Virus record (IMG/VR): IMGVR_UViG_3300037427_000343 | Coordinates: 1-31,927 of that record | DNA: 31,927 nucleotides | Origin: a virus | Strand: one strand, 5' to 3' | Shown here: positions 6,702 to 25,248 of the stretch, one piece after another | How positions within the stretch are numbered: position 1 is the first letter of the stretch | Layout: each line of letters opens with the position of its first letter | The notes under the pieces: model-generated | The model's input: only the letters and a program-made list of their open reading frames with translations | Told to the model about the DNA's origin: nothing | Databases searched by the model: none | Position numbers and translations under genes: made by a program

Positions 6702-6709
6702 TATTTATA
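6702..6709 (-). promoter_or_regulatory. T4-type late promoter (TATAAATA) for gene 8
   Basis: On the minus strand these eight bases read TATAAATA, the late promoter element used by T4-like phages and their cyanophage relatives (sigma gp55 type). It is about 37 bases upstream of the gp8 ATG. The TAA stop codon of the giant gp7-like gene (6705-6707) is inside the motif, so one sequence serves as both stop codon and promoter. It implies that gp8 and the DUF4815 gene can be transcribed without reading through the 15.4-kb upstream gene. Confidence 0.75.
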
Positions 6710-9700
6710 AGGTTTTGTTAAATGCTCCAGTGTTTCTCAATCCAATATTGCGCCTTTGTGCAATTGGGAAGTTATCTAGATCAGGATTATAATCTAATCC
6801 TTTAACTGTTAAAGCAATTGGGTAACTGACATCTCTAATAGCAGAAGAGAAGCGTCCCCATGTAAATCTTGCTGCAGGATGTAAGGTTGATCCAACACCA
6901 ACTAATCCACTAACATCAGTTCCTGAATGGATGTTGCAGGTTATAACACCTGTTCTAGCACTTCCATCCCATGATAATGCATGTGCATAGTATATATTGT
7001 CAACTTCAAAGGTGCTAATACCAATAACATCCGAATCATGTGTATCTGTACTAGTAATTACTCCAGCAGCAGGTGATATACCTGTTCCGTAAACCTTAAA
7101 CGGATAACCTGTAGCAAATCCAGTAACAAATGATGCATTGTTAGAGTTAACTAAGTTATTAGTATCCAACTGGAATACAATACCAAGATCAGTACCAATA
7201 CCAACAGAAGTGGTAATACCAGTAATTAAACCAGTATAACCTTTAACATCAGTAACTAAAGGATCTATATCATTCCAAACTTCCCAGTTAACACCTGCTT
7301 GTGCAGTTGTTCCAACACCAACACCGTAAACATAAAGTCCAAAGTCATCAGTTAATTGACCATCAAGATCTCTAAAGTTCTCAGTATGATCAACATATAA
7401 TGTTGTATCAGTTGCAGCAAATCCAGCAATAACATTTGCTGTTGGATAGATTTGTGCTTCACTAGAATCTCTAGCTTTAGATACTATAGCACCACCAAAG
7501 ACTTTATCAGACTTTTGCTTATTCCATCTAATAGGTTTGTAGTTATCATTACTGACACCTCCTCCTTGATAGAATGGTGTTTCTACAACAGATGCAGTAG
7601 CAATCCTAGAAACAATTCTTGGTTCATTTTGATCAAAATTGTCTGTAATCTTAGGAACAGTATTTTTCTCAATTTCAGCACTCTTGAATAATTCTAATGA
7701 ATCACCTTCTTTAATAATCTCATTCACATCAAAGAATGAACTATCTGCACCAACTGTACCTCTATAGAAGAATATAAAGACATCATCTTCAATTGTTGGA
7801 GCAGTCTCAAAACTAACTGAAGTACCACCAGTAAACTCATAATGCTTATAAGGTTCTTGTAGAACACCATTAACAAATATCATTAATACTGGAGCAAGAT
7901 CAATCTCTCTCGAATCAGAATCATTATTATCAATTTCAAAACTGACTAATTGATTCTGATAATAAAGTGGGAATCTCTTTCTATTACCATCTTGGAATGT
8001 CTTAATATTGTCAATATAGTCAATATTACCAAATTGCCATGCAGCAACATCATCACTAAAGACATTAATAACTTCAATTTCAAATGGAATGAATAAATCA
8101 CCAGCAGTAGGATCAGTAGACAATCCAACTAGATTGATCTTATCACCTCTCTTAAATCCATAACCAAACTTAGTCATCTTCCAAATATAGACTTCATTCA
8201 ACTGGAATTCAGAACCAGTTGAGTATCCAACAAAATTAGTAGATAATCCAATAATATCTACTGTAATAGAACATCCAACACCAGTAGTTGTAGTATTACC
8301 AAGTCCTTCTCGATAACTACCAGTTACTGCTAAGTTACTTCCAGATGGCCAAGGAGCAGAAATATATGTATTGGTTGCAATATATCCACTACCAGCATGA
8401 TCAATACTATAGATTAAAGTACCACCTGCGCCAACTGTCGCTGTAACTGTTGCACCAGCACCACTCTTTGTACTATCAACAACGCAAATTGCTTCGGTAA
8501 TAGTTTGTAGATCAGTAGTATACCCAGAACCAAACGACAGTTCATAATAAGGAGCTGCAGTACCACCAGCATGATAAGAGTGTGGAATTGTACTTGGACC
8601 TGCATTGACAGTGAAAGTCTTAGCAGAAATGATTCCAACAACATCTAATTGCTGATCATAATCTGGATAAATGTTAGTTGTTAAACCAACTCTTACTATA
8701 CCACCACCAGTATAAGGATGTGTTAAAGTAGATACTCCAACAAATGTAGTAAAGGATGTAGTAGTACCTACAGACCTTACAGTGTAATAGTAACCTTGAA
8801 CACCACTAGGATAAGTCTTAGAACCATATGTACAAGTAACTCCGATACCTGCTAACTTAAAGTTCTCAGGTTTTACTAATCCATGATTATTAGCAGTAAA
8901 CTGAATAATACCAGTTGAGGGATTGTAAACTGCATTTGTTGGAGTTAAAGCAGCACCAGACCAAGAATCAATATAAAGTGCGCTAGAAGCAGCACTAACA
9001 AATTGATGACTGTAATCACCACCATACTGAACTGCTCCAGTTGTAGCACTTTGGAAGGTATGAGCGTAATTACCACCAGAGACTACTGCATTAGTTGCTT
9101 CATGCCCTGCACCTATATCATAACGATGTTCAGATGTGTCAGTTGCAATACCAACTTGAAGTGTAATATATCCAGTCTGTTTCTTAAGACCATCAGTAAC
9201 TGCACTATCAAATCTATGATCAAACTGTTGAGAAGGACCAGATTTGCCAACATCAACCGCAAATGTATTAACAGTTGTGCTTGCAATTGATACCCACTTA
9301 CCGCTAATCGGATCAGAAGGTCTTGGATATGAATGTGCAATACGATACCAATCTCTATAACACTTGAAGGAAATTGAATTATCATCAAACTTAACTCTAT
9401 CACCATTCATGAATCCATGACTAGCGACTGTTACAGTCATAATACCAGCAACACCATCATATACACCATCAGTTATTGTTCTTGTAGTTGCACCAACACT
9501 AACAATATCAATTGGTTGATCATATGCCCTATCACGCTTTTGATCCATACTACCAACACCAGCAGCCTGGAAAGTATGTCCATAAGCACCACCACCATGA
9601 ACTTGTGATCTCTTAATAGCACCAGTTACACCAGATAAGAATATGTGGTCTGATTGTCCTGTAAGACCAGACTGCATACTATTAACTCTAAAGGTATTGG

Positions 9701-12700
9701 TGGTTACATTAGAAACCTTAATCCACTTACCACTGTAAGGATCAGTTTCTCTAGGATATGCATGTGGTGTACTATTGTCATCCATAGCACAGGTAAAGGA
9801 TACTGCTCCAGTATCAAACATAACATAGTCACCATTACTTAATCCATGATTAGTAGAAGTAACAGTCATGATACCTACAATACCATCATACTGCGTACCA
9901 GATTCAGCAGTTAACCCTTCATGCGGTACATAATGATGAGTTGAAATATTTGTGGACGGTTGTGACGCTAAAACTTGGAACGAAATTGAATTTGCGCTCG
10001 TAGAAGCGATAGAAACCGCAGTTGTAAATCCAGGATCACTAGATCTTGGATATTTGTGTAGACTCTGGTATGTGTCTAATCCACACCTAAATGACATCGA
10101 TTCAGGTGAAATTTGGATAGATTGACCAGTCATCAAGCCATGGTCACCTATCGTAGCTGTTACGATGCCAGCAGTGGGGTCGTAGACCGCCGAGGAGATA
10201 CTATAAGGTGCTATAGGTGACTTACCTACCTCAACAGTAAATGAAGTGGTTCCTATGCCCGTTATCGGCAACCATTTGCCACTAACAGGATCAGATGATC
10301 TTGGATAGGTCTTCGTAGAAGTACCGCCATCCATGTCGCACTTGAAGGAAATAGAGTCATTATCGAAGCGTATATAATCGCCATCATGAATAAGTCTACC
10401 GCCAGGTACGACTGTAACGGTCATAATACCAGCATTTGCATCATAAACTGCGCCATTTACAGTCTGAGTATCTATTGTATTGCGTGGATATGCGTGAGAA
10501 GAAATATAACTATCAGTTGCACAACGGAAAATAAGTGATCCAGTCGCTAACTTAATCGCAGTTTGTTCTGCTAGTCCATGTTGACCAATATTAAGATCAA
10601 GGAAACCAGTTGCAGGTGTATAAGTTGCAGTAGTAACACTGTAATTAACAGTAGGTGATGTACCTACAGTAATGGCAATGCCAGTTGCAGTAGTAGAAGC
10701 AACTGAAATTGCTTCATTATAATAAGGATCAGTTAATCTAGGATAAGACTTAGTTTGACTATTTCCATCCATAGCACACTTAAAGTCAAGTGAATTGCCC
10801 TTAAGTTTAATAGTAGTACCTGCCATAATGTTATGGTTAGGTATAGTCATCGTCATGATACCTGCTACAGGATCATAAACTGCATTAGTAGGTGTCCAAC
10901 CAACATTACTAGTAATACCAACAAATACATCAAAAGTATTATTAGTAACATTCCTTATTTCAAGGAACTTATCATTTACAGGATCAGATGCTCTTGGATA
11001 TGTGTGATCAGTTGCATATTCATCCTGACTACATGTGAATGTTAAAGCACCTGTAGTAATACCAATTAGATTAGGATCAGTGAAGTTGTGATTAGCATCA
11101 GCAATAATTGTGGCAATACCGCTAACATGGTCATATACAAAGGAGGTAATACCAATAGTGCTTCCATACCCAAGACCAGATTTACCAACATTGATAGTAA
11201 TACTATCTGCAGTAGTCGTAGCAGAACCAGTCTTATTATAGAAAGGATCAGTTAATCTAGGATATGCATGGTATGTTGCATAGCTATCCTTATCACAACT
11301 CATAGTGACTGACTCTGTAGCAAGTCCGACAATATTGTTATTAGCATATACCAGACCTACAGCAGTAGATCCGATGGATAATGTCATCGCACCTGTCAAT
11401 GCGTTATACCTAGCATCAGATACATCTGCGTAGACTAAAGTTGAAATACCAACATTTAAACTAAAAGCAGTAGTTGAAGTAGTTGTTATACCAGTTGTTA
11501 CACCGCTAATTGGGTCAGTACTACGAGGATAAGTATGCTGAGTAGCATGATTATCTCTAGAACAAGTATATGTAAGTGAATTTGCGTCAAGAGTAATAGT
11601 ATCACCAGTAGTCATACCATGAGCAGTACCAAATGATAATGTTAATACACCAGTACTTGCGTCATAAGTAGATCCATTTGGACTCTTCTGATTACCTGAT
11701 TCTGCACCACTTTGGACATTGACCGCATTAGTAGCAGTACCACCATCCCAAGTATGAACATAATCACCACCCATAATTAGAGCATTGGAAGTAGCACTTC
11801 TGAATATGTGCTTATAACCAATACACTCCATTTGGAGTCCATTTAGATAAACTGGATCTTCAATCTTAAGATTATGAGGTGCAACTGTGCTAACCTCCAT
11901 AATTCCACTTTCATTATTATAGAAAGCAGTACTTACAGCAACTGCGCTTCCTACTGTTGGTACACCAACAATACTTGTTAGAGTACCATTACTATCAAAT
12001 AGTGGTTTTACATTAGCACCTATGAATGGAGCATATCCTCTACCTGGTGTAGATGCAACAGAAACAATGATGCCACCTCTAGGTAACTGGTTTTCATTAA
12101 TATCTCCAGTGTCTATTATTGGAGTATCATATCCAAAGGAACTGATACCAGTAAATACAACGCTACTAATTCCTGCAGCTTCTTCAATCTTAAAGTTTGC
12201 TTTTGTATTATTTTCACTATATGGTGCTTGGAATATATTATTAATGAATAGCACACCGTTACCACCAGTTGAACCAATACCAGTTACAGCAGATCCAATA
12301 GTTGTCAATGGATAGGTAGTTTCTAACCCATTAAACCTCTCAGACATATCATCAAAAATTTGATTCTTAGCATAATCTTGTCTTAAGAATGTTCTACCAC
12401 CAAATGTTGCTCTTGCAAACGGAAGATTATTTGGATTAATAATACCAGTATCACCACCAAGAGGTGCTTGTGTGAAATGTACCTTACTATCTAAGATCTG
12501 GAATGAACCTCTAAAGAGTCTAGCGGTTTCACCAGCAGCATGTGCAGTAGCAGCAGTACCAATCGCACCTCTTTCTATTTCTACTAATGTCCAAGTACCA
12601 ATACCAACAGTAGGACCAATTGTAGTAGTACCAAATCCAACAGTTCTTACAATTGAATACTCATCTTCAATTTTAAGCAAATCTCCTGATCTGATAGATG

Positions 12701-15700
12701 AAATACCACTAAGAACAAATGCGGTTACAAAACCAGCAACAGGAACATCAAGAGTATAATTGATAGCAGTATAAGAAATTGGTTTCTGTACAAGACCACT
12801 AATAGAGATCATTGACTTAGAATCTCTCTTTCTCATAGAGAATCTATGTTGGTTACCAGTACCAGTATTTTCTAAGAAAGTTACTCCAGCACCGATTTTA
12901 GCATCATTTTCTGTTAATGCTATTCTATACTGTTGATTATTATCCTTAATAGCATAAACTGTATCTGGAAGATAACCAGTTGTACCTGCACCTGTCTGAT
13001 ATACTAAAGCAGATCCACCTACACCAACAAGGTTGGAATCTGGTTTATATGTTAACTGTTCGTAAGTAGAGAAGAAATGTTTCTGATTAAATTGACCTAA
13101 TGAATAGTCAAGTATAGTAGGATCAGATATATTACACTCTTGAGCGTAAATAGGATATCCTCGATACTTAAGATCAAATGATTTGATATCTCTGTTATTG
13201 ATTCCTAGATATACATTTTGTGCAACTGATTCATATGATTGTCCATAATTTAATTCACCAATACCATCAATAGTACCGTTGTTATCCAACTGTAGGTACA
13301 TAACCTCATTATAAGCAGTAACACTAACAACCCCTGCTACAGAAGGATGGAACTCTAAATTAATATTTCCATCTGGTCTATAGGTAGATCCAAATGTACC
13401 AACACCTGTTGTAGAACCAATAGCAGCTAAAGGAGTTTCAGTTATAAAGTTTTGTTGATTATATGGATCAGTTAGTAAGTAAATTTGATGTAATGACTGT
13501 GTAGCACCATAAGAGACATGAACTGTTGATTTAACTGAAAGATCAGTTATACTTGATATACCAGCAATAGTTGTAATACCAGATTTAGACTGACTAGATG
13601 CTTCTATACGACCAGATCTTTCCGTTCCATCTGGGGTAAATGGAATCTTAAATCTATAATTGCTTGGTCCTACTGTAGATGGATCAATAGCAATTGTCTT
13701 ATATTTGACATTAACTGTATTTGTACTTCCATTTTCAAAATCAAGTTTAAGTAATCCACCTTCAATTTTAGAACTAAAGGTTCCTATAAAGTCTGGACCA
13801 GATAATCCACTTAAATTCTGTTTAGAGTTAAATGCAGTTAACTCAGTTAGATAAGTATCTACTCCATTATGCATTACTGCATATTCAAAGTAATCTACTT
13901 GTTTTGCAGCACCACCACCAGGATTATCAATAACTATAAAATGTATAAGAGCAGCTTGAGTACTTAAGGTTGATAAACCAACAACATTAGTTGTAGTGGA
14001 AATTCCAAGTGTAGATGCAGCAGCAACTTGAGTAAGACCACCATCTAATCGAATATGACTAAATGCAGAAGTTCCAACACCTACAGAATCAGCAAAATTC
14101 TGTTGCCAAGTCTTAATTTCATAATTAGTGTCAAATGCTTCATTTGGTCTAGCAATCAAATAAGTTTTTGATGATGCAGGATCATAATCAGTATCAAATA
14201 CAATATATCCAGTACCAAGACCAACCTGATCAAAATTCTTCATTTCTTGCTTTTGAAGCAAGTAAGTATCACCATCAATAGTTACAGAGATAAATTCATT
14301 TAATTGATACTGATTTTTCTTAGGATCTTCTGCATGATGAACAGTTTGAGTAAACCATCTTTGAAAATAGCGTCCTGCAGGATATTGAGCAACAACTCTA
14401 TAATCACTTAAATCATTAGACTCATTAGACACAAATTGAGGTGAAATATCGTCAATATTCAAAACTCTATTAGTTCTGTTTAAAATAAAGTCAGAAAGTC
14501 TAGTAGTCCGTAATTCAATAAATTTTGAAATATTTCCTTGTGCTAAGAAGTCTCTTCCAAGATCAAATGGATATATTGAGTCAACTCTAATAGGATCTCC
14601 AATAAAGTCAAGAACAAGACCACCAGCATCTTCTGCTGGCTTAATAGTATCTCCAGGAACACCTTCTGCAATAATTTCAGTATTAGCAAAGTTTTTCATC
14701 CCAGATGGATGAACTATATCATTAACATAGGTAACTAATTCTTCATATGTCTTTTTACTTTCAATAGCATAAGACATATTCTGATAGTAGTCATTATCAG
14801 GCAATACTTGGTTAGTATCATTAATAATACCAATATTGTCTCTCCATCCAACTAAAGTTTTAACAGAAGAGGCAATATTAAAACTACCATCAAATTCAGT
14901 TATACCAATAACTCTACAAAGAGAACCACTAAGTTTACCTATTAAAATATCATTTACTTCTAAAGGTTCAGCACCACTAACAATAATCTTAGCAGCATTC
15001 TCATCAATGAAATCTAACTGAATATCAGCAAGAGCATTTTGATTTCTCTTGAATGGTTCGTTAGGTATGAACTTAGAAGTACCTTTAACTACCTCAAATC
15101 TCGCAAGATACTCTGATTGAGTTATTTGACCAAATCCAAACGAAACAGTTGCTCCAGTACCAGGATTGGTTGAAATACCGTTTAGATCAAATGTAACTTG
15201 TCTTGGGTTTGTTGCATCATTGTAATCAGTAACAATAAATGGAGCAAACTTATAATCACCAGAGTTATACCCAGTACCACTTCCAGCATCGTATGATATA
15301 CCCTCAACTAAACATGAATCACCAATACCAATAGGTTCGTTAGTATATCCTAAAACTGGAGTTGTAATCTTACAAGTAAGGATTCCAAGTTGCGCTTCTG
15401 CACTAACAATACTAATACCGTTACTATTTCTAATAGGTGAAACGCCATAGTCATTATTTGACAATCCAATTGGAGGTACAGAAACAGTTGCACTAGTAAC
15501 TGCAGAATCGCTTAATTCGCAAGTAATTAACCCAGTATCAACAATTGTACCTGTTCCTTTATCATATAATGCAAGTGCAGGAGCATTAATATAGAATTTA
15601 CCACCATAGGTAACTCTAACTTCATCAATAGTAGCAAAACTATCAATCTCAACAACTCTAGGAATAAATGCGTCTGGTTTTAAAGTATTATCTGATGGAT

Positions 15701-18700
15701 ATCCATAAACATCATCAGGAACCGTCATTTCTGCCAATTTATTAATTGAAGACGATTCAGGAATTAAAGTAGCATTAATACCACTACCAGCAATACTAGA
15801 AATACCAGGAAGTCTAGAATAATTTAATCCACGGTTAGCAATCCGTATAGTAGAGATTCCACCAGTAGCAGAAGCAGATTTAGTCGTATATTCTAATACA
15901 TCGACATCTGAAGCATTATATTGTAAAGATTCTGGTCTAAATCGTAAATTAATTGAAAATTCTGTAGATCCAATACTAGTAATATCATAAGAACCAGTAT
16001 ACGAACTATCAACATATTTAATCTCAGTTCCATTAACTACAGTAGAATCAGTAGTAACAATTCCACTTGGACCAAATAAATTGTAGAATAATACTGGAGG
16101 AATGGTATCAGAGTGTTTTAAAGTAAGTGTTGGATGATATTCATTAGTAGCAACAGGAATAGTAGACCCAATACCAACAGTTGCTAAAGTACTTACTCCA
16201 ACAACCTCAAATCCAAGACTTGTACCAGATCCAACAAATTCATTAAAGAAAGTTGCATCATAATAGAATTTTAAGTCATATCCTTGTAATGTTGAGTCAC
16301 TAAGATCAAAAACAAGATCACTATTAGAATATGGTCTTAATTGTGGGTTAATAGGATTAATAGTTTGTCCAGAACCACCTTGAGAGGTAATATTGACAAC
16401 ATTAGGAGTGCCTAATGCTTCTTTAAGAGTATTTGCAAGAGATAGTGTATTATCGTCTATTCTGATAACATAATACTCTCTTTCGGTTACTCCATCAGGA
16501 AGATTGGATCCATAATAGAGAATCCTGTCTCCAGTTATTAATCCATGACTATTTGCAGTAATTCTATTACTAGTTGTGTTTATTCCAGTCTGATCTATGT
16601 TAAATGGATTTGATATGATATAATTATTGATAAGTTGAATCTTAGTGTATGTTGTAGATCCAATACCAGTAGCAAGTCCAGGTTTAACGATTAAATCGAT
16701 CTTATCAGTATCAGACAACTCATGTTCACTTTCAGTCTGAATTGTAGATGTTATCTTTTGGACAGATCCAGTAACTTGATTGATTTCTTGCTTTTCAAAC
16801 AAATAATCATACTCAGTAGTACCAGTATTAACAAACCAAAGATCTTTAGAAGATTTAGTGGTCTTTATACCAATAGTATCATTAGTTTTGGGTGTTACAT
16901 AAAGACTTTGACCGTCTGCTAGGTTAAAAGTACCAGCATAATTAAAATCAGTCGTAGCACATCCAATTGTCTTACTAGTTCCTGGTGGGAAATAGAATTT
17001 AATCTCATCATTAGTTTTTAAACCATGATTAGGCCAATATATTGTTTGAACTAATAAAGATCTATCAGTAGTAACACCAAGATACTGATATGAATTTGTT
17101 ACTGACAATCCAGGAGTTGTACCGACACCAACTGCTTCAGTTGCGTCAAAATAGTACTTTATATTTGGTTTAGATGTAAATTTATCCGTTATAAGAGGAA
17201 TCTCTATTTGATCTGCATAATAAGAGATACCTAATCCAATAATACCAGAAGTAGTAACTCCAAGAGATCTACGAACCCTTAATGCACTATCATTTCGGTA
17301 AATATTAAGAATACTAGCAGTTTCTGTTCCGATTCCAACAGTTGTTCCAATTCCAACTAAACTTGGTGTATATGATGAGAATCCAACAGTAGAACCAACA
17401 GAAACAGTTGGTGGAATGTACTGAACTCTAATATCAGTTACTAATCCAACAAATCCATCTTCTAACAATGTAGTTGAATAATTTACTGAGGCAATTTTAT
17501 GAGATGCAGTTAATTTATTAACACTAGTAGATAATCCAGCAACTTGAATGAAATCTTTAGAATTTAAGTCATGGGATGGTGCTATATGAGCAATAACCCT
17601 ATCATTTCTCCATTCAAAAGTTGTTCCAGTGTAATTAAGGAATGTTGTTTCAATTTTAGTAACTTCTTTACCAGTTAAAGTATCAACATATGCTAATGCA
17701 CCAGATCCACCAGTATCTTCATTAGTAAAGTCAATTTTTGCACCTATAGTGTAACCTGTTCCTGGAGAAGAAATTCTAATATTGTCAATTGATCCAATAT
17801 CAATTTTATATGGTGTTGCAACATTAGGTATCTGCTTATAAGGTTGATATACGAAATCATAAGCAACCCCATCTCCAAACATCTTATATGGAAGGGTATT
17901 TCGTACTAATTGTGAATTTTCAAAATCAAATGCTTGCTGTTTGATTTTTTCACCAGATACAGTGTTAACTCTTAATGGAGTACCTCTATAAGTATCACCA
18001 ATGTAATAAGGAAACTCTGGATTTAATATATTATCTACTGAAGCATGATAAACATAAGCACCTTCTGGAAATTCGGGTGTTTTTGCAAATCTACCATTAT
18101 GTTCATCTAAACTACCTTCTGTATTATAATAATAATCTTCAATAAAGAATCCTGCTTCATAATCTGATATAGATGGTCTATTATAAACTCTATTTGAATC
18201 AAGTTCATATGATGTAGTCATCCTTGTCGCTGACGACTGAATATCATCAATATCAGTAAATCCATAAGGTCCATAAATTGGATTTCCATCATATGCCCAT
18301 CCAATAATGGGAGAATGACCTGAACCATCATCATTAAACGCATTTCTTACAGTTGCTCCATATGCAACAGATTCAATTGCTAATCCATCTTCAACTGGTG
18401 CTAGGTAATCACCATTTAATGTTCCAGTAGTCTTATACTTGTTAGCAACTAGTCTTCTTACCTTTGTAGAGAAAGTTGCGGAATCACCAGGTGCTTTAAC
18501 AGTAACTGATGTTGTAGTAGAAGCATAACCAGCACCTTGAGCAAGAACTCTAACAGAGGAAATTTCTCTTGCGTTCATTACAGCACGAAGTTTAGCACCA
18601 GTAGCAGTACCTACACCAGTAACTGTTAAATCTGGAGGTCCATCATAATCTTGACCACGAGCTTGAACAAATGCATCAATAATTCTACCATTAACAATAG

Positions 18701-21700
18701 TTAATCCAATTTGTCCAAAATTACCAACATTAATATCAACTGAAGGTGCTTTTTCAAAATTAATAATATTTGATCCATAATCTCTACCTTTATCGTAGAG
18801 AATAGTATCTACAACTTGACCACGAACAATAGGATTAGCTTCAATTGTCTGTGGGGTATCTGCATCAGTAATAACATTAACATCAACTGTTACAGAAGGA
18901 TAATAGAAGTCTTGATATCCTGTACCATGATTAGCAAAACGAACATATTCTTTATTGAGATAATTTGCTGTATTTGGAGTCCTAGTAGTAGCAATTCCTG
19001 AATAACATAATCTAAATCTATCTTCATCCAGTTTTAATACTTGATATTGTGCAGTAGAACTAAGACCACTAACAACAGATCCACCAGTAGTTGATATACC
19101 ATAATGAACTACTTCACCATTACTAAATCCATGATTTTCAAATTCAACAAAATCTCTAAGAGTACTAATACCTGCAGGTGCTACAGATAGTCTTCTATTT
19201 GTATATCCAGATCCACCCTCTAGAATTGTCATTCTAGAAATGCGTCGTTTTGTATAATAGTCTCTAAACTGATGAATACCAGTATTTAAATCAGCTGCAG
19301 TTGTACCAAATCCAACAGTATTGGCAACACCAGCAACAGCATCAGATTTTGTTCTATAAAGTTTAAATATCGTTGCACTAGTCACACCAACATAATATGA
19401 TTGACCTTCAACCAAACATGTATCAATACCAGCAGATGCTGCAGTATGTAATCCAATAACAGGATTATTATTTGAAGTATAAAGTACTCTATCCCCAGTA
19501 TTATAATAATGGGGTTTATCCATGATAAATCGACCACCCTTACCATCTAGAGGATCAATATTACCACCATCATAGAATGATTTTGCGTTAAATGTAAATT
19601 GTCTATATGCTAATTCTGTTACTGCCTGTGCTTTTGCGCCTAAACCATTTCCACCATGTATATCAACGGAAATAATCTTTTTAACCTCATAATCAATAGG
19701 ATCAATTAAAACATCAGTAACTGTACCTGCAATAGATACTCGACCATAAGCAGTATTAATTCCTGTACTATTTTCAATTGTTATTTGAGGAGGATATAGT
19801 ACATCATAATCTCTACCAGAATTAACAATATCTAATGATTGAAGAGGTCCATAATAAATGAATTTGTCAGATTTATAGTTGGTAATTTCAACACCATTAA
19901 TCAACATTCCAGTATTACCATCCAAAGTTCTTTCAGATGTTGTTTGTTGTTGGTATCCCTTATCTAAAAACTGTTTTAAAATAAATCTCTTAAGTGTTCT
20001 ACCTGGGAAAATAGATTTTCTTGCCTGTTCTATTCTAACAAAATCATGAACTCCAGTAGCAACATTTGGAGGACTAAATTCTACTGAAATACCAGAAGGA
20101 ATAAAAGATCTAGAAGGATATAATTTAATTTTGTTTTTCTGAGATAAAACCTCTACAAAATAAGAATTCTTATCTAAATTTCCTATAGGTACTGTATTTC
20201 CACCTGGAACATAAGCAACTTCTTCACCAGTTCTAAATGGTACATCCTGTGGGAATGAAATAATAGTATATTTGTCTGTTAATGTATTATACCCCTGCCA
20301 AGCACCGCCAGATACAGTTGGGTTTGTTAAAACAGAATGAACTTTATCACTAATGATTGGATATGAAGGAATAGAGTTAGAAGCAACATATCCTTCCTTT
20401 ATATTGTTCTCTGTATTCTTGGCATCAAGAATATATGTATTAGTAACATCGGATAATATCTGATTCTGACCACCGATAATAGGTACTATACTACTAGTTG
20501 CTTTTTCCTGAATTCTTCTTATATCATAAGATAATCCAGGAATAATTGAGAAAGTTCCACCAATACTAATTGAATTATTAGTGTTATTAACATAAGTAAC
20601 AGGTAATGAAGCAGCAGCTACTGTTTCTGTGTTTCTAACCAATAATTCTACAGTATCACCAACCTTTAAACTGGACTTATCAATATCACCTGTTAAAGTA
20701 ACAGTAGAACCACTTAAATCTTCGATTAAATATCTTGCACTAGTATTATAAATCCAAGAATTAAAGAATGTTTGTTCCCAAGTAGAATTTACAGCAGGAT
20801 TGGATATATTTCTTCCAAGGTTCTTAATTGCAACTCTAGAAGTTTCAGATAATCCATACAAATCTTGAAGAGAATCAAATTCCCTCAAAACACCAGTTAT
20901 TCTCATATTAACTTGCTTTGAGGTATCATTATCCTCATATCCATACACTACAGTTGGTGTATAGATGCTAGTAGCAGAAAGAATATCCTTAGTGGTTGTT
21001 GTAACTCCAATAAACTGGTTTACAGTCTTTTCAGTATAGTCTAATTTTTGATATGATGTCTCTGTAGTTAAACCAACATCAATAGTACCTGTTTGACCAA
21101 ATCCTATAGTAGAATCAACTGTAACAACAGTTGCACCAAGTCCAACTTTACCAATTACTTGAGTTTTACCTGGAACAACAAATGTACCTTGAATTAAGTC
21201 TCTATCATCATATCCAATAAAGACAGATAGACGATAATAGTCGTCTCTAATCTGTACAACCTCTGAAATAGGTCCACTAGCAGCATTTACTAATGTATTA
21301 TTAGGAACATCGTCCTGATAAAGAGTTTGACCAATCAGTTTAATCGGATCTCCAGAAATTAACTGAACAGCAAAAGACTCTCTTCTTAAATAGTTGGCAT
21401 AAGAGGGTTTTATGAGGTATTTTTCAAGATCATTGATTTTTGGTTCTAAACCAAATAATGCTTTAAATAAAATCTTGAAAGATTCGTCAGTACCCTTAGA
21501 TTCATATAAACTTCTTGCTTCTTTTATAAAATTATTAACATCTAAGTCAGGACTAAGAGGAACTCCTTCTAAACCAGGTGTATACTGTACTTTTAACTTT
21601 TCATAAAATTCTTTAAGGAATAAAGAACTCAAATTTTGAATATTTGCACCTGATGAATGAGAATCTGCTATTGATTCTGTAAATGTTAGATTTTTTGGAT

Positions 21701-22115
21701 CATTTATCGCATGATATGTTGTAATTCCACTAAAACCTCTTACACAACCAGTAAAACTTGTTTCTGTTTTATCAGTATATGTAATAATCTCATTATCAAT
21801 TTTTAAAAGACCCCATTTTTGAGGAAATCCTTTAGTATTACCACTAACAGTAATAATATCATCAGTAGTAGTAATACTAGAAGCAGTTGTTACTACACCA
21901 GAGATAACATCTTTGGTTAAATTATCAACCCTAATATATTTGTCAATGTTTTCGCCAATATCTACTACTCCACCCTGATATTCCTGAGAAATATAATATT
22001 GCTCTAAAAAATTCTCAAAAAGAGGATTTTCATTAATAGCAAATTCGGGAGCCTGATCAGAGACAACTTGATAAGTCTTAACTCTGTTAGATAAGGGGCT
22101 ATAGGTTTCTATCAT
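6705..22115 (-). CDS. 7: Giant gp7-position baseplate wedge / virion structural protein
   Basis: A single open frame of 5136 residues between gp6 and gp8, where T4 has gene 7 (1032 residues). Three stretches resemble the C-terminal core of T4 gp7 as I remember it: YESKGTDESFKILFKALFG (about 208-226), LIGQTLY (about 258-264), and an SYAIES...VNDIVHPSGM segment with its His at 2469. In T4 the second and third are close together, so here about 2200 residues separate them, and about 2650 more follow the third. The insertion holds several Gly-x-Gly-Tyr beta modules, many VGIGTT-like linkers, and a YHYH-family motif GWAYDGNPIYGPYG near residue 1272. The extension holds NGVLQ-P type modules (one near 4700-4790) and nine C-x2-D...YPR-x2-DP repeats. 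No signal peptide or membrane segment is evident. The ATG is six bases after gp6. Baseplate location is inferred from synteny and the split core. Confidence 0.85.
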   Translation of the reverse strand: MIETYSPLSNRVKTYQVVSDQAPEFAINENPLFENFLEQYYISQEYQGGVVDIGENIDKYIRVDNLTKDVISGVVTTASSITTTDDIITVSGNTKGFPQKWGLLKIDNEIITYTDKTETSFTGCVRGFSGITTYHAINDPKNLTFTESIADSHSSGANIQNLSSLFLKEFYEKLKVQYTPGLEGVPLSPDLDVNNFIKEARSLYESKGTDESFKILFKALFGLEPKINDLEKYLIKPSYANYLRRESFAVQLISGDPIKLIGQTLYQDDVPNNTLVNAASGPISEVVQIRDDYYRLSVFIGYDDRDLIQGTFVVPGKTQVIGKVGLGATVVTVDSTIGFGQTGTIDVGLTTETSYQKLDYTEKTVNQFIGVTTTTKDILSATSIYTPTVVYGYEDNDTSKQVNMRITGVLREFDSLQDLYGLSETSRVAIKNLGRNISNPAVNSTWEQTFFNSWIYNTSARYLIEDLSGSTVTLTGDIDKSSLKVGDTVELLVRNTETVAAASLPVTYVNNTNNSISIGGTFSIIPGLSYDIRRIQEKATSSIVPIIGGQNQILSDVTNTYILDAKNTENNIKEGYVASNSIPSYPIISDKVHSVLTNPTVSGGAWQGYNTLTDKYTIISFPQDVPFRTGEEVAYVPGGNTVPIGNLDKNSYFVEVLSQKNKIKLYPSRSFIPSGISVEFSPPNVATGVHDFVRIEQARKSIFPGRTLKRFILKQFLDKGYQQQTTSERTLDGNTGMLINGVEITNYKSDKFIYYGPLQSLDIVNSGRDYDVLYPPQITIENSTGINTAYGRVSIAGTVTDVLIDPIDYEVKKIISVDIHGGNGLGAKAQAVTELAYRQFTFNAKSFYDGGNIDPLDGKGGRFIMDKPHYYNTGDRVLYTSNNNPVIGLHTAASAGIDTCLVEGQSYYVGVTSATIFKLYRTKSDAVAGVANTVGFGTTAADLNTGIHQFRDYYTKRRISRMTILEGGSGYTNRRLSVAPAGISTLRDFVEFENHGFSNGEVVHYGISTTGGSVVSGLSSTAQYQVLKLDEDRFRLCYSGIATTRTPNTANYLNKEYVRFANHGTGYQDFYYPSVTVDVNVITDADTPQTIEANPIVRGQVVDTILYDKGRDYGSNIINFEKAPSVDINVGNFGQIGLTIVNGRIIDAFVQARGQDYDGPPDLTVTGVGTATGAKLRAVMNAREISSVRVLAQGAGYASTTTSVTVKAPGDSATFSTKVRRLVANKYKTTGTLNGDYLAPVEDGLAIESVAYGATVRNAFNDDGSGHSPIIGWAYDGNPIYGPYGFTDIDDIQSSATRMTTSYELDSNRVYNRPSISDYEAGFFIEDYYYNTEGSLDEHNGRFAKTPEFPEGAYVYHASVDNILNPEFPYYIGDTYRGTPLRVNTVSGEKIKQQAFDFENSQLVRNTLPYKMFGDGVAYDFVYQPYKQIPNVATPYKIDIGSIDNIRISSPGTGYTIGAKIDFTNEDTGGSGALAYVDTLTGKEVTKIETTFLNYTGTTFEWRNDRVIAHIAPSHDLNSKDFIQVAGLSTSVNKLTASHKIASVNYSTTLLEDGFVGLVTDIRVQYIPPTVSVGSTVGFSSYTPSLVGIGTTVGIGTETASILNIYRNDSALRVRRSLGVTTSGIIGLGISYYADQIEIPLITDKFTSKPNIKYYFDATEAVGVGTTPGLSVTNSYQYLGVTTDRSLLVQTIYWPNHGLKTNDEIKFYFPPGTSKTIGCATTDFNYAGTFNLADGQSLYVTPKTNDTIGIKTTKSSKDLWFVNTGTTEYDYLFEKQEINQVTGSVQKITSTIQTESEHELSDTDKIDLIVKPGLATGIGSTTYTKIQLINNYIISNPFNIDQTGINTTSNRITANSHGLITGDRILYYGSNLPDGVTEREYYVIRIDDNTLSLANTLKEALGTPNVVNITSQGGSGQTINPINPQLRPYSNSDLVFDLSDSTLQGYDLKFYYDATFFNEFVGSGTSLGFEVVGVSTLATVGIGSTIPVATNEYHPTLTLKHSDTIPPVLFYNLFGPSGIVTTDSTVVNGTEIKYVDSSYTGSYDITSIGSTEFSINLRFRPESLQYNASDVDVLEYTTKSASATGGISTIRIANRGLNYSRLPGISSIAGSGINATLIPESSSINKLAEMTVPDDVYGYPSDNTLKPDAFIPRVVEIDSFATIDEVRVTYGGKFYINAPALALYDKGTGTIVDTGLITCELSDSAVTSATVSVPPIGLSNNDYGVSPIRNSNGISIVSAEAQLGILTCKITTPVLGYTNEPIGIGDSCLVEGISYDAGSGTGYNSGDYKFAPFIVTDYNDATNPRQVTFDLNGISTNPGTGATVSFGFGQITQSEYLARFEVVKGTSKFIPNEPFKRNQNALADIQLDFIDENAAKIIVSGAEPLEVNDILIGKLSGSLCRVIGITEFDGSFNIASSVKTLVGWRDNIGIINDTNQVLPDNDYYQNMSYAIESKKTYEELVTYVNDIVHPSGMKNFANTEIIAEGVPGDTIKPAEDAGGLVLDFIGDPIRVDSIYPFDLGRDFLAQGNISKFIELRTTRLSDFILNRTNRVLNIDDISPQFVSNESNDLSDYRVVAQYPAGRYFQRWFTQTVHHAEDPKKNQYQLNEFISVTIDGDTYLLQKQEMKNFDQVGLGTGYIVFDTDYDPASSKTYLIARPNEAFDTNYEIKTWQQNFADSVGVGTSAFSHIRLDGGLTQVAAASTLGISTTTNVVGLSTLSTQAALIHFIVIDNPGGGAAKQVDYFEYAVMHNGVDTYLTELTAFNSKQNLSGLSGPDFIGTFSSKIEGGLLKLDFENGSTNTVNVKYKTIAIDPSTVGPSNYRFKIPFTPDGTERSGRIEASSQSKSGITTIAGISSITDLSVKSTVHVSYGATQSLHQIYLLTDPYNQQNFITETPLAAIGSTTGVGTFGSTYRPDGNINLEFHPSVAGVVSVTAYNEVMYLQLDNNGTIDGIGELNYGQSYESVAQNVYLGINNRDIKSFDLKYRGYPIYAQECNISDPTILDYSLGQFNQKHFFSTYEQLTYKPDSNLVGVGGSALVYQTGAGTTGYLPDTVYAIKDNNQQYRIALTENDAKIGAGVTFLENTGTGNQHRFSMRKRDSKSMISISGLVQKPISYTAINYTLDVPVAGFVTAFVLSGISSIRSGDLLKIEDEYSIVRTVGFGTTTIGPTVGIGTWTLVEIERGAIGTAATAHAAGETARLFRGSFQILDSKVHFTQAPLGGDTGIINPNNLPFARATFGGRTFLRQDYAKNQIFDDMSERFNGLETTYPLTTIGSAVTGIGSTGGNGVLFINNIFQAPYSENNTKANFKIEEAAGISSVVFTGISSFGYDTPIIDTGDINENQLPRGGIIVSVASTPGRGYAPFIGANVKPLFDSNGTLTSIVGVPTVGSAVAVSTAFYNNESGIMEVSTVAPHNLKIEDPVYLNGLQMECIGYKHIFRSATSNALIMGGDYVHTWDGGTATNAVNVQSGAESGNQKSPNGSTYDASTGVLTLSFGTAHGMTTGDTITLDANSLTYTCSRDNHATQHTYPRSTDPISGVTTGITTTSTTAFSLNVGISTLVYADVSDARYNALTGAMTLSIGSTAVGLVYANNNIVGLATESVTMSCDKDSYATYHAYPRLTDPFYNKTGSATTTADSITINVGKSGLGYGSTIGITSFVYDHVSGIATIIADANHNFTDPNLIGITTGALTFTCSQDEYATDHTYPRASDPVNDKFLEIRNVTNNTFDVFVGITSNVGWTPTNAVYDPVAGIMTMTIPNHNIMAGTTIKLKGNSLDFKCAMDGNSQTKSYPRLTDPYYNEAISVASTTATGIAITVGTSPTVNYSVTTATYTPATGFLDLNIGQHGLAEQTAIKLATGSLIFRCATDSYISSHAYPRNTIDTQTVNGAVYDANAGIMTVTVVPGGRLIHDGDYIRFDNDSISFKCDMDGGTSTKTYPRSSDPVSGKWLPITGIGTTSFTVEVGKSPIAPYSISSAVYDPTAGIVTATIGDHGLMTGQSIQISPESMSFRCGLDTYQSLHKYPRSSDPGFTTAVSIASTSANSISFQVLASQPSTNISTHHYVPHEGLTAESGTQYDGIVGIMTVTSTNHGLSNGDYVMFDTGAVSFTCAMDDNSTPHAYPRETDPYSGKWIKVSNVTTNTFRVNSMQSGLTGQSDHIFLSGVTGAIKRSQVHGGGAYGHTFQAAGVGSMDQKRDRAYDQPIDIVSVGATTRTITDGVYDGVAGIMTVTVASHGFMNGDRVKFDDNSISFKCYRDWYRIAHSYPRPSDPISGKWVSIASTTVNTFAVDVGKSGPSQQFDHRFDSAVTDGLKKQTGYITLQVGIATDTSEHRYDIGAGHEATNAVVSGGNYAHTFQSATTGAVQYGGDYSHQFVSAASSALYIDSWSGAALTPTNAVYNPSTGIIQFTANNHGLVKPENFKLAGIGVTCTYGSKTYPSGVQGYYYTVRSVGTTTSFTTFVGVSTLTHPYTGGGIVRVGLTTNIYPDYDQQLDVVGIISAKTFTVNAGPSTIPHSYHAGGTAAPYYELSFGSGYTTDLQTITEAICVVDSTKSGAGATVTATVGAGGTLIYSIDHAGSGYIATNTYISAPWPSGSNLAVTGSYREGLGNTTTTGVGCSITVDIIGLSTNFVGYSTGSEFQLNEVYIWKMTKFGYGFKRGDKINLVGLSTDPTAGDLFIPFEIEVINVFSDDVAAWQFGNIDYIDNIKTFQDGNRKRFPLYYQNQLVSFEIDNNDSDSREIDLAPVLMIFVNGVLQEPYKHYEFTGGTSVSFETAPTIEDDVFIFFYRGTVGADSSFFDVNEIIKEGDSLELFKSAEIEKNTVPKITDNFDQNEPRIVSRIATASVVETPFYQGGGVSNDNYKPIRWNKQKSDKVFGGAIVSKARDSSEAQIYPTANVIAGFAATDTTLYVDHTENFRDLDGQLTDDFGLYVYGVGVGTTAQAGVNWEVWNDIDPLVTDVKGYTGLITGITTSVGIGTDLGIVFQLDTNNLVNSNNASFVTGFATGYPFKVYGTGISPAAGVITSTDTHDSDVIGISTFEVDNIYYAHALSWDGSARTGVITCNIHSGTDVSGLVGVGSTLHPAARFTWGRFSSAIRDVSYPIALTVKGLDYNPDLDNFPIAQRRNIGLRNTGAFNKTL
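8690..11690 (-). repeat. Coding tandem repeat array in the giant gp7-like protein
   Basis: Nine diverged protein repeats lie in frame inside the giant gene. Each unit has the order Y-D-x-x-x-G-[IV]-[ML]-T, then H-G-[LM], then [FY]-x-C-x2-D, then x-[HKS]-x-YPR-x2-DP, then a Thr-rich strand. The YPR codons fall near 11525, 11260, 10994, 10741, 10486, 10303, 10046, 9756 and 9325. Spacing is 253-290 bases, except for a short unit of about 183 bases (10486 to 10303) and a long one of about 431 (9756 to 9325). A tenth, degenerate unit (TCTYGSKTYPSG) is near 8810. His-rich linkers such as GHTF and SHQF are interspersed. The DNA copies are diverged, so this is an old protein repeat and not a fresh DNA duplication. 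It may form a row of beta domains projecting from the baseplate, which is inference. Confidence 0.85.
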
Positions 22116-22121
22116 TCTTGT

Positions 22122-24041
22122 TTACTGTCTAGTAATTGTACCATTAGAGTAACTAGATGTGACCTTATACCCAATTCCAGAGATTTGTTGTCCAGAAGAT
22201 ATAGTGTCTCTCACAATATTTATCGTAGTATTTGACATGTCTAATTGAAGATACAAATCCTTCAATCCAATAATATCATTGGATTCTGGAAACGCTTGTA
22301 TTTCAATAATACCCGAAGCAAGTGAGGATGATGTAATATTAATAGTATTAATCATTATTTCACCTTTTTCATAATCTACTGTTCCTGCAGAAGGAATAAC
22401 AACAGGTGCATCTTCACCTGACAATTCAGTTATTTGAATAACAGCAAGATCACCTGTTTTTAAGTCTGCATGTGGTAAATCTGTAAAGTATAATGTATTA
22501 CCATTATTAGAAATAGTAAATCCAGTAGATTTAATATTTTTACCTTTAGGATTTACATGAAATGAATTACCAAAGCATAATTCATACTGCGAAGATGCAT
22601 TAAATATAGGTTTCAAATCTCTTCTCATCTTCAATTTAGTAATATTGGAAACAAATGCGCTATTGGATTCATCAATAATTTTCTGAACCTCAGAAAACTT
22701 AAATCTACCACCAAATGCATTTAAATTAGTAGATTTTCCATAATTTGTTAACGCATCACTCAATTGAGACTTCAATCCATTCGTATCACTAAAAATATTT
22801 GCATTATAATATGCATTAACATCCATTTCAACATAAAGAACCTTCAAATCAACGATTCTTTGATTAATCCCTGCAATAGAGTAACTTTTTAACCTATCTA
22901 AAATTTGTGTTTTACTAAAGTCAGACAAATAAGTGGAATTTCGAGGTTTAATGCTTAAAATAACTGTTCCATATTCAGGAGGATCTAGTTCTTCACCTCC
23001 AATGACGGAAACTGACTCTGCATCAGGGAATATACTCTGTACAATACCTTCGTAATCCCTTCCTGTAACCGCCCTGTACTGCGATGAATAGACTCTAGGT
23101 GCAATATACTTAATTGACTCTATATCTTCGATATCACCGCCTCCTTTAGCGGTCTGTACTGTTGTAATAGTTATGGTTTGTGATGCAGGAAGAGGATTTC
23201 CAGCATCATCTACAGAATCACCACTAAATGAGAAGAATTTTCCATCATTTCCTGCTTTTCCATCGGTAATAATGTAACTTACTTCAATAATATCACCATT
23301 ATCGAGTTTTTTACCGAATAGTCCATCACCAAACATCAATTCATACTTCTCATCCTTAATTTCTTGAATAAGATAGATGTTTGACTTCTCATTAATACCT
23401 GTAATATTATCAATTCTCGAATATTCAAGACCAGAAGTGGATCCAGACTTCCTTACAAACACTCTAATCGAATCAGCATCAATAAATGAGTTATCTAATA
23501 CAAATCTTTGGTCTAAACTACCACTAACTACGAAATTTTTCTTTAAAAGTGTACCTTGATATACTGTTATGTCTCTAAATTGCGCTGTTCTTGGTGGATT
23601 TACTAAAACATTGCTTCCAGCATCAATTGGACTAGTAACAGTTATATTATCTGGGATAGAAAATGTAAAAGAAGTGTTATTTTGTGCTCCTACACAGATT
23701 AATCCTTTGCGTAATCTAACGCTATTGCTATTTCCGTTGAATTTAAAATCAAAATTTATAATTGCTTGAGCAGATTTACGAGATCTTGGTACATATCCTA
23801 TATTTCTTGCTAAAGATACGACATTTTCTCTTAGAGTTGCTGAATCCAAGAAGGATTCGTTGACAACCATGTTACTATTAAATGCTGTAATATAAGTATT
23901 GTACGCTAAAATGTCAATTAAGATAGAAATATTCGATCCTTCAAAGTCAAAATCAGTAAAATTACTGTTTGCTCTAAGATAAGAACGAATTTGTGCCTTA
24001 ATTTGGTCAAAATCAAGGTTAGTAAACTTGGTTACGGGCAT
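22122..24041 (-). CDS. 6: Baseplate wedge protein gp6
   Basis: 639 residues, close to the 660 of T4 gp6. The N-terminus MPVTKFTNLDFDQIKAQIRSYL, followed by FEGSNISILIDILAYNTYI and FLDSATLRENVVSLARNIGY, is the typical gp6 / baseplate J-like opening. Gp6 forms the ring of wedge dimers that ties the six baseplate wedges around the hub and helps drive the change to the contracted state. A mid-protein stretch with YSSQYRAVTGRDYEGIVQSIFPDAESVSVIGGEE fits the baseplate J-like core. The gene starts four bases after the gp25 stop and ends six bases before the giant gp7-like gene, so it belongs to the transcript from the late promoter at 24466. Confidence 0.93.
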   Translation of the reverse strand: MPVTKFTNLDFDQIKAQIRSYLRANSNFTDFDFEGSNISILIDILAYNTYITAFNSNMVVNESFLDSATLRENVVSLARNIGYVPRSRKSAQAIINFDFKFNGNSNSVRLRKGLICVGAQNNTSFTFSIPDNITVTSPIDAGSNVLVNPPRTAQFRDITVYQGTLLKKNFVVSGSLDQRFVLDNSFIDADSIRVFVRKSGSTSGLEYSRIDNITGINEKSNIYLIQEIKDEKYELMFGDGLFGKKLDNGDIIEVSYIITDGKAGNDGKFFSFSGDSVDDAGNPLPASQTITITTVQTAKGGGDIEDIESIKYIAPRVYSSQYRAVTGRDYEGIVQSIFPDAESVSVIGGEELDPPEYGTVILSIKPRNSTYLSDFSKTQILDRLKSYSIAGINQRIVDLKVLYVEMDVNAYYNANIFSDTNGLKSQLSDALTNYGKSTNLNAFGGRFKFSEVQKIIDESNSAFVSNITKLKMRRDLKPIFNASSQYELCFGNSFHVNPKGKNIKSTGFTISNNGNTLYFTDLPHADLKTGDLAVIQITELSGEDAPVVIPSAGTVDYEKGEIMINTINITSSSLASGIIEIQAFPESNDIIGLKDLYLQLDMSNTTINIVRDTISSGQQISGIGYKVTSSYSNGTITRQ

Positions 24042-24045
24042 TTTT

Positions 24046-24438
24046 CTATCTAGTTGCCTCTAAGAGGAATGAAAATGATTGAGTAGAGTAGTCTTGACCT
24101 ACAATTTCATATGATACAATAACTTCAAAAGCATTTCTATCTGGAAATGGGAACGCTTCAACGATAACATCAGCAATTCTGGGTTCCCAACTAGCTAGTT
24201 GGTCTTGAATTTGTCTTGCAATTACACTTCCAGTGGCAACATCAACAAAACCAAATAGAGAATCTGTTATATCTGTTCCAAGTGTGCTATAAAACCTCTC
24301 GTTTATACCAGTTTGCACTAGATTTTTTACAGAACGAGTGATGGCCCTCTCATTTTTAAGTACATTCAAATCACCAGTTACGGGATTTGGTACAAAATCA
24401 AGAGAAATATCTTTATAACCTCTGGATTTAGTCGCCAT
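24046..24438 (-). CDS. 25: Baseplate wedge protein gp25
   Basis: About 130 residues (T4 gp25 has 132). Gp25 belongs to the gp25/TssE family and sits at the sheath-baseplate interface, where it nucleates sheath assembly with gp6 and gp53. The signature EPR motif is present in ASWEPRIADVIVEAFPFPDR, and SLFGFVDVATG...IQDQL matches the family's preceding helix. I prefer the ATG at 24438, giving MATKSRGYKDIS; a TTG two codons earlier is possible but has no added support. No strong Shine-Dalgarno is visible. The TATAAATA late promoter is 28 bases upstream, making this the first gene of the baseplate operon, and gp6 follows after four bases. Confidence 0.93.
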   Translation of the reverse strand: MATKSRGYKDISLDFVPNPVTGDLNVLKNERAITRSVKNLVQTGINERFYSTLGTDITDSLFGFVDVATGSVIARQIQDQLASWEPRIADVIVEAFPFPDRNAFEVIVSYEIVGQDYSTQSFSFLLEATR

Positions 24439-24465
24439 TAACAAGTTGGCATTACATATCAGGGT

Positions 24466-24473
24466 TATTTATA
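24466..24473 (-). promoter_or_regulatory. T4-type late promoter (TATAAATA) for the 25-6-7 operon
   Basis: On the minus strand the bases read TATAAATA, 28 bases before the gp25 ATG in the short gap after the Ycf35-like gene. The motif matches the late promoter element of T4-like phages exactly. It is probably the main promoter for gp25, gp6 and the giant gp7-like gene. Confidence 0.8.
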
Positions 24474-24483
24474 CTCTATTTTC

Positions 24484-24867
24484 TCAATTCCAACGAGTGA
24501 CTACTAATTCGATGCTATTATCATCCATTTCCCATTCTTCTGCTACCTGCCAACCATCTTCTTTTATCTGATTATGAATAGTCATCCTTGCATATTGTTG
24601 TGTGACTTTTTCAATAAACCTTTTTGGAGGAATAGGATGATCCCATGTTTGCAAATCTGCCACTAATTCATATACACCTGTTACTTCATTTAAACGAAAT
24701 CCTATATCATTCCCTATAGCAACATCAACTTTTACCTTCTCATGATTGTGATCAATAGGGTTAATTAATAAATGATCCTCCTGCACATCGTACTGAAGGA
24801 TCTCTAATGCTTCGAGCAAAGCGGGTTTTTTTGTTATCTTAGTCTTTATCGTACTAAAGTGTGACAT
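24484..24867 (-). CDS. ycf35: DUF1257 / Ycf35-like protein
   Basis: 127 residues starting MSHFSTIKTKITKKPALLEAL, the hallmark opening of the DUF1257 (Ycf35) family of cyanobacteria, algal plastids and some cyanophages. Other family features are the central IGNDIGFRLN then YELVADLQTW, and the later FIEKVTQQYARMTI. The biochemical function is unknown. In bacteria the family is often found beside DUF2997, and sometimes near a Ycf46-type AAA ATPase or a ferredoxin; neither of those is seen here. It overlaps the upstream DUF2997 gene by one base (TAATG), indicating translational coupling, and is the last gene before the late baseplate promoter. It is likely a host-derived auxiliary gene, which is inference. 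I considered gp53 because of the position, but the N-terminus argues clearly for DUF1257. Confidence 0.9.
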   Translation of the reverse strand: MSHFSTIKTKITKKPALLEALEILQYDVQEDHLLINPIDHNHEKVKVDVAIGNDIGFRLNEVTGVYELVADLQTWDHPIPPKRFIEKVTQQYARMTIHNQIKEDGWQVAEEWEMDDNSIELVVTRWN

Positions 24868-25073
24868 TAGCAGCCTTCCGAGTCGTGTACATATTCTTCA
24901 ATTGGTTCATTCTCATAATAAGCAGGACTAAATTCCCTAGTTAATACTGTTCCTAGTTCTGCTTCTACTTTATTAGTTATCTCTAAACATTGACTGCCAG
25001 TTACACCTGTTGTCTCTACCGATACTAAACCATCTTGTCTGATGGAATACTTAACCGTTTCCTGTTTTGACAT
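24867..25073 (-). CDS. DUF2997 family protein, partner of Ycf35
   Basis: 68 residues: VKYSIRQDGLVSVETTGVTG followed by SQCLEITNKVEAELGTVLTREFSPAYYEN. This fits the DUF2997 pattern I know from cyanobacteria: a short beta hairpin, a GxxGxxCxxxT segment, an E-x-x-LGTV-x-x-RE helix end, then a Tyr-rich tail. In cyanobacterial genomes this family is commonly adjacent to DUF1257, and the same order with a one-base overlap (TAATG) is kept here, so the two probably act together. The function is unknown. A near-consensus late element (TCTAAATA) lies 23 bases upstream of the ATG. Confidence 0.8.
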   Translation of the reverse strand: MSKQETVKYSIRQDGLVSVETTGVTGSQCLEITNKVEAELGTVLTREFSPAYYENEPIEEYVHDSEGC

Positions 25074-25095: not shown

Positions 25096-25103
25096 TATTT
25101 AGA
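25096..25103 (-). promoter_or_regulatory. Possible late promoter, one mismatch (TCTAAATA)
   Basis: The minus strand reads TCTAAATA, one base off the TATAAATA late element, 23 bases before the DUF2997 ATG. It overlaps the stop codon of the upstream 49-aa gene, as the gp8 promoter overlaps the stop of the giant gene. With one mismatch in an AT-rich genome it could be chance. Confidence 0.3.
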
Positions 25104-25248
25104 ACTGTTTAGGATGTGTAACTACATCACCATGTATTTCACCTATATCATCTATATGTGCATGATCAATCTTTTCAATATGTAAATGCTCTAGAGAATT
25201 AGCAATTCTTTCAAGAGCATTTGCAATACGATTAAACTCTTCACTCAT
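25099..25248 (-). CDS. Small conserved-looking protein, 49 aa
   Basis: An ATG frame of 49 residues reading MSEEFNRIANALERIANSL, then EHLHIEKIDHAHIDDIGEI and HGDVVTHPKQF. The first 20 residues form an amphipathic heptad-like helix (FNRIANALERIANSLEHL); the rest is His/Asp-rich. A good Shine-Dalgarno (AGGAG) lies about 11 bases before the ATG, unlike most neighbours. It overlaps the end of the preceding 28-aa membrane peptide. The function is unknown. The alternating His/Asp tail might bind metal, which is speculative. Confidence 0.65.
   Translation of the reverse strand: MSEEFNRIANALERIANSLEHLHIEKIDHAHIDDIGEIHGDVVTHPKQF

Follow-up and report, generated by a model that had tools for sequence, protein, structure and literature searches.

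The window analysed here, a 31,927-base IMG/VR virus record that covers a partial phage genome, is a fragment of a cyanomyophage. On its minus strand it carries two small adjoining genes, which encode a DUF2997 protein and a DUF1257 protein of the Ycf35 family (Table 1), and the stop codon of the first shares one base with the start codon of the second (TAATG). Both products exceed their Pfam cut-offs and match from the first to the last profile position: PF11211 scores 56.7 bits on DUF2997 (cut-off 24.1, E 2.2e-15, profile 1-47 of 47) and PF06868 scores 75.9 bits on DUF1257 (cut-off 22.2, E 3.4e-21, profile 1-103 of 103). A previous inspection of the letters alone, hereafter the sequence-only reading, had named this pair, and its coordinates, gene order and overlap were correct. 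In PHROGs, each product belongs to a family of unknown function. A match of DUF1257 to NpmA (E 0.014) lies far under NpmA's own cut-off and is ascribed to chance.

Table 1. Features at and around the DUF2997-DUF1257 pair in the window
Feature	Position	Strand	Evidence and remarks
His-rich 49-aa gene (phrog_35332), just upstream of the pair	25099..25248	(-)	frequent, non-obligate companion
CTAAATA, candidate late-promoter-like motif before DUF2997	25096..25102	(-)	overlaps the 49-aa gene's stop codon
DUF2997, 68 aa	24867..25073	(-)	PF11211; one-base overlap with DUF1257; invariant Cys29
DUF1257 (Ycf35 family), 127 aa	24484..24867	(-)	PF06868; phage-specific HxHE at residues 40-43 (loop comparison); AlphaFold2 pLDDT 88.6
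TATAAATA, candidate late-promoter-like motif between the pair and gp25	24466..24473	(-)	motif match
gp25-like baseplate wedge gene (context)	24046..24444	(-)	PF04965, 31.9 bits; phrog_261
gp6-like baseplate wedge gene (context)	22122..24041	(-)	PF21379; phrog_219

Downstream of the pair, and on its strand, follow first the gp25-like and then the gp6-like gene, and the earlier placement of the pair beside the baseplate operon is correct. Further along the minus strand, a single reading frame of 5136 amino acids (6705-22115) occupies almost half of the window; it matches the giant baseplate wedge family phrog_2885 and has tail-fibre-like parts toward its end. Upstream, at a distance of about 1.5 kb from the pair, the minus strand encodes a 2OG-Fe(II) oxygenase (PF13759, 26605-27237), an iron enzyme, and genes of this type recur near the pair in other loci.

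Two candidate motifs in the window resemble the T4-type late promoter consensus. Because one of them, TATAAATA, sits before gp25, the pair may form a transcription unit separate from gp25. Late-promoter-like motifs precede DUF2997 by no more than 150 bases in 35 of 141 loci, compared with 283 of 8089 control windows, an excess that may be partly due to the relatedness of the loci and to the 49-aa gene's stop codon. Judged from these motifs, late expression of the pair is possible in the window phage, and the position on the gp43 side in P-SSM2 may entail a different timing.

In the phages examined, the pair proved to be a strict, inseparable unit. Searching 50,697 annotated phage records by tblastn revealed DUF1257 in 15 records, each of which also has DUF2997 directly upstream, and DUF2997 in no others. 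They represent 12 viruses, namely P-SSM2 (three records), P-SSM5, P-SSM7 (two records) and nine marine single-cell viruses; none of the 12 is named for Synechococcus, although 376 Synechococcus-named records match the gp43 polymerase (E <=1e-100). IMG/VR contains 502 stretches with DUF1257 relatives and 346 with DUF2997 relatives, and the best 80 of each correspond to 144 loci, some of which lie on the same contig. The two genes are adjacent in 140 of these 144 best-scoring loci and in 140/140 of those with an uncut 5' side, while the remaining four end with the contig merely 4-79 bases before DUF1257. This adjacency is far beyond chance. Among the 15 annotated records and the 144 best-scoring IMG/VR loci, singletons of either gene were found solely at contig ends; the IMG/VR count covers the best-scoring loci alone, and more remote singletons are possible. 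The sequence-only reading had proposed that the two proteins act as a unit and had suggested a survey of pairs versus singletons, with frequent singletons speaking against the idea. Such singletons were not seen in what was examined, and the proposal is supported by this and by the single phage clade in both trees described below.

The surroundings of the pair are far from constant. Neighbouring genes were clustered and representatives annotated, which left 30 of 155 loci unclassified. The pair adjoins gp43/DUF6561 in 40 loci, lies between small genes and gp25/gp6 in 32 and between head-closure and sheath-stabiliser genes in 17, and has several further settings; in some phages it is found near nucleotide-sugar enzymes. 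Mapping ten named settings on the phage DUF1257 tree requires at least 18 changes; the pair is retained while its surroundings change. In P-SSM2 a Nol-like carbamoyltransferase gene and gp43 flank a stretch that contains the pair and two small DUF6561 genes; in P-SSM7 psbA and a 2Fe-2S ferredoxin gene follow closely downstream of the pair, with petF and hli genes nearby. In these isolated Prochlorococcus phages the orthologous pair is annotated as T4-GC 174 and 175, there labelled 'hypothetical proteins', and it occupies a genomic setting different from that in the window. A significance of the baseplate neighbourhood is not supported, as related phages place the pair in many other spots; because ten or more genomic settings contain the pair unbroken, this neighbourhood is incidental. 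In single loci, a plastocyanin-like copper protein gene (PF00127) lies near the pair in L133 (4652-5011), and L097 (10736-11314) encodes a phage protein of 192 aa bearing a 4Fe-4S-like motif, which appears NdhI-like by eye and which PHROGs assigns to an unknown family with a weak ferredoxin match.

The origin of both genes was addressed by phylogeny. In a DUF1257 tree of 111 proteins and 128 columns, calculated by a quick method, a single branch (SH-aLRT 98), drawn within the picocyanobacterial part, sets the 30 phage rows apart from all others. The nested origin inside Prochlorococcus that this first tree depicted was dropped, since a picocyanobacterial clade excluding the phages is not rejected by the AU test (p 0.74) and long branches meet. 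When the paralogues and four long phage rows are left out, phages and picocyanobacteria stand together apart from the other cyanobacteria with a support of 99. The DUF2997 tree likewise has one phage side, with a support of 99. At the level of sequence phylogeny, both phage genes are shown to be host-derived and nearest to the picocyanobacterial copies. The comparison with cyanobacterial homologues, which the sequence-only reading had named as a check, gave one phage clade in both trees, and independent origins were not seen.

Derivation from a cellular host gene, which is expected of auxiliary metabolic genes, is found here with a support of 99. The pair resembles psbA, hli and petF in being host-derived and carried by cyanomyophages. 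Median dN/dS values of 0.11 and 0.25 indicate that both genes are under purifying selection. The maxima are 0.7 and 3.9; since the two sequences of each comparison were taken at equal length and left unaligned, the value of 3.9 probably results from gap-shifted comparisons.

The gene arrangement in the hosts was surveyed in 194 genomes of the cyanobacterial phylum, centred on a Synechocystis genome, using both families as queries. DUF2997 is present in 120 and DUF1257 in 98 of them, the latter also in 52 of the 61 genomes sampled from the picocyanobacterial family. DUF2997 lies directly upstream in 84 of the 87 genomes with a strong-class best DUF1257, a count that leaves out 11 genomes; it is 1.7-1.9 kb away in two of the exceptions and absent from that contig and strand in the third. 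The one-base overlap also occurs in a host locus (L246). Most host loci contain a CxxCxxC ferredoxin reading frame after ycf35; the motif scan overlooked some genuine instances, L248 among them. Scanning genome contigs with the phage profile revealed no relative, which, because its patterns are specific to phages, is not evidence of gene absence in hosts. Some genomes of 1.8-2.1 Mb in the phylum, possibly from non-photosynthetic members, show weak DUF2997 matches and no DUF1257 match.

The host arrangement corresponds to a described operon. The accessible part of PMC4284462 defines cluster g of cyanobacteria as DUF2997-ycf35-fed7, in which fed7 encodes a [4Fe-4S] ferredoxin, and reports that Fed7 is required for tolerance of iron starvation and of oxidative and metal stress and that it is part of an FTR-glutaredoxin relay. 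Excerpts from other studies indicate that fed7, ycf35 and ssl1263 are SigD-dependent in their transcription (PMC8875361), that Ycf35 is among the proteins raised upon copper/iron deprivation (PMC8141849) and that Ycf35 is one of the predictors of Prochlorococcus light ecotypes (PMC13131479). The last source also mentions DUF2997 in 'some viruses', and beyond this remark the literature searched, as far as it was accessible and with subscription papers mostly outside, contains no treatment of the pair in cyanophages.

The phage pair shares with cluster g the two families, their order on one strand with DUF2997 directly upstream of DUF1257, and a similar spacing, and both phage genes are nearest to picocyanobacterial copies. 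In contrast to the host operon, the phages lack fed7. A Prochlorococcus Fed7 query matched 0/20 pair-carrying phage records, some of them fragments and the complete P-SSM2 and P-SSM7 genomes among them, and PF13370 matched 0/6 phage records while detecting Fed7 beside ycf35 in 3/3 control host genomes; in the window, the position of fed7 downstream of DUF1257 is taken by gp25. The phages also differ from the host operon by frequent His-rich and Nfu-like companion genes and by a loop of DUF1257, in which the RGYxGQT of host Ycf35 is replaced by NPxxHxHE. G39 and G42 are conserved in 100% and Y40 in 97% of 70 host rows, while H40 is conserved in 96% and H42 in 100% of 30 phage rows. Other conserved positions of DUF1257 are mostly unaltered in the phages, and Cys29 of DUF2997 is found in 100% of phage and host rows and is invariant in all three groups.

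Structure prediction gave a good model for DUF1257 (Table 1) and a poor one for DUF2997 (pLDDT 58). Foldseek comparison of the DUF1257 model with the PDB returned nothing at E <=0.001, and a second structural search produced KA1-like and CPSF/Integrator C-terminal domains at Z <=6.4, which is too middling to indicate a function. A PDB sequence search with DUF1257 gave no match; with DUF2997 it gave two copper ATPase domain matches at chance level (E 0.34 and 0.61).

The 49-aa companion has a helix-like start (RIANALERIA), and 20 columns of a 15-sequence alignment are invariant, including H23, H29, H31, H39 and H45; the protein could bind metal. Its gene belongs to Prochlorococcus-type phages, by the pair or away from it. 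Of 155 phage loci, 86 contain the gene. In 55 of the 96 loci whose flanks are long enough it is no more than 1 kb from the pair, usually immediately upstream and occasionally immediately downstream. Within the annotated phage collection, 15 records encode it; they correspond to 11 of the 12 pair viruses plus P-TIM40 (two records). In some pair viruses the gene and the pair are on different contigs, and in P-SSM2 about 45 kb separates the two. When 80 IMG/VR loci were selected by the His-rich gene, DUF2997 followed 5-29 bases downstream in 42, the pair lay on the other side in one, one locus was cut, and 36 had no pair in the available flank. DUF1257 is missing from 13 of the 14 larger records behind these unpaired loci, most of which are fragments and one of which is the complete P-TIM40. 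With 36 of 80 loci pairless in the available flank and P-TIM40 carrying the gene without the pair, an obligate third partner is not supported.

The second companion, an Nfu-like gene (PF01106, NifU C-terminal), is present in 10 of the 12 pair viruses and, among the other cyanophages, in P-TIM68 alone, where the pair is lacking; within the INPHARED cyanophages it is thus nearly confined to pair viruses. Nine further matches are in records named for Listeria, Staphylococcus or Salmonella. In 8 of 96 loci it is no farther than 1 kb from the pair, for example in L106 (4134-4370) and L097 (3001-3243). P-SSM7 has the pair with neither companion. The co-occurring viruses are partly one lineage. AG-345-D19 (gp43 68%) and P14 (60%) are distant from P-SSM2, yet carry the pair and both companions, whereas S-SRM01 and S-SKS1 (gp43 79%) are closer and absent from the searches for all three. 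This distribution argues against simple common descent of the co-occurrence, on the basis of few independent events.

The presence of the pair, without fed7, in ocean Prochlorococcus viruses suggests that the two proteins share a task concerning iron or redox. We tentatively propose, as a possible reading and the best-supported functional one, that the pair is a host-derived two-protein accessory of iron-sulphur/redox metabolism, which Prochlorococcus phages have remodelled and keep for Fe-S/redox support. DUF2997 and DUF1257 would most likely form one small complex, which in the host would work with the [4Fe-4S] ferredoxin Fed7, itself tied to iron limitation and oxidative stress; this link to Fed7 is confined to the host because the phages carry no Fed7. 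Prochlorococcus phages would have acquired DUF2997-ycf35, without fed7, from a picocyanobacterium or a close relative and turned the most conserved loop of Ycf35 into a histidine-containing one. During phage production the pair would uphold an Fe-S/redox function and so benefit infection, with host Fed7 and its thioredoxin-reductase relay as candidate targets, or else Fe-S carriers, of which the phage Nfu-like protein is an example. The sequence-only reading had considered a photosynthetic or redox role; the redox suggestion gains circumstantial support from the host operon as described in the accessible part of PMC4284462. A bolder version, which we regard as doubtful, holds that the phages have swapped host Fed7 for a module consisting of the His-rich microprotein (IDHxHIDxI...HGDxxTH), the Nfu-like Fe-S carrier and the HxHE loop, which would handle iron or Fe-S.

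Another reading starts from other neighbours of the two families. Many cyanobacteria encode extra DUF1257 genes beside AAA+ ATPase genes of about 500-550 aa (for instance in L354-L360 and L251). Four of these AAA+ neighbours were confirmed as AAA by Pfam, and some of the paralogues have their own DUF2997, which constitutes a second conserved context of the families. The pair might correspondingly be an adaptor that presents substrates to a host AAA+ remodelling machine, perhaps a Ycf46-like protein, and the phage would redirect this machine. The paralogues belong to the same Pfam family as the phage proteins, but to another subfamily, which has an AAA+ neighbour instead of fed7 and which separates from the Ycf35 and phage rows in the tree, save two rows of unsure place. 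According to the accessible part of PMC5940233, the presence of four plastid genes, ycf35 and ycf46 among them, correlates with red algal habitat, which would suit an adaptor. In the host loci examined, however, the Ycf35 class ancestral to the phage proteins adjoins fed7 and not an AAA+ gene, and the neighbours in the L357 region lack a Walker A motif, as judged by a simple pattern in this one region. An AAA+ gene was found neither among the scanned window neighbours nor in the annotated surroundings of the pair in P-SSM2 and P-SSM7, and we consider the adaptor unlikely.

The replacement of the most conserved host loop in all phage rows and the absence of fed7 would also fit a decoy, in which the altered phage proteins would be competitors of host Ycf35-DUF2997 that obstruct the Fed7 pathway or divert it. 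Purifying selection and the mostly unchanged conserved positions fit a working protein equally well or better, and a decoy appears quite unlikely. A place of the pair in the baseplate itself is rejected on account of the varying neighbourhood among phages. A broader service in tail or baseplate assembly could draw on gp25 and gp6 in the window and on the setting between head-closure and sheath-stabiliser genes, but it is highly improbable for proteins of cyanobacterial descent whose genes elsewhere lie by the DNA polymerase gp43, upstream of psbA or by nucleotide-sugar enzymes.

Ycf35 has been retained in many plastid genomes and in most cyanobacteria without a known function. The phage pair represents a natural mutant series of this system, in which DUF2997 is the sole constant partner, the ferredoxin is gone and one conserved loop is changed, and it indicates a two-protein core and a loop that may contact ferredoxin. 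If the iron-sulphur/redox reading is true, Fe-S upkeep would join the functions that Prochlorococcus phages bring into the cell. If Fed7 has indeed been swapped for phage proteins, the resulting module would sustain iron-sulphur or redox proteins in the infected cell and would disclose what Ycf35 and DUF2997 do.
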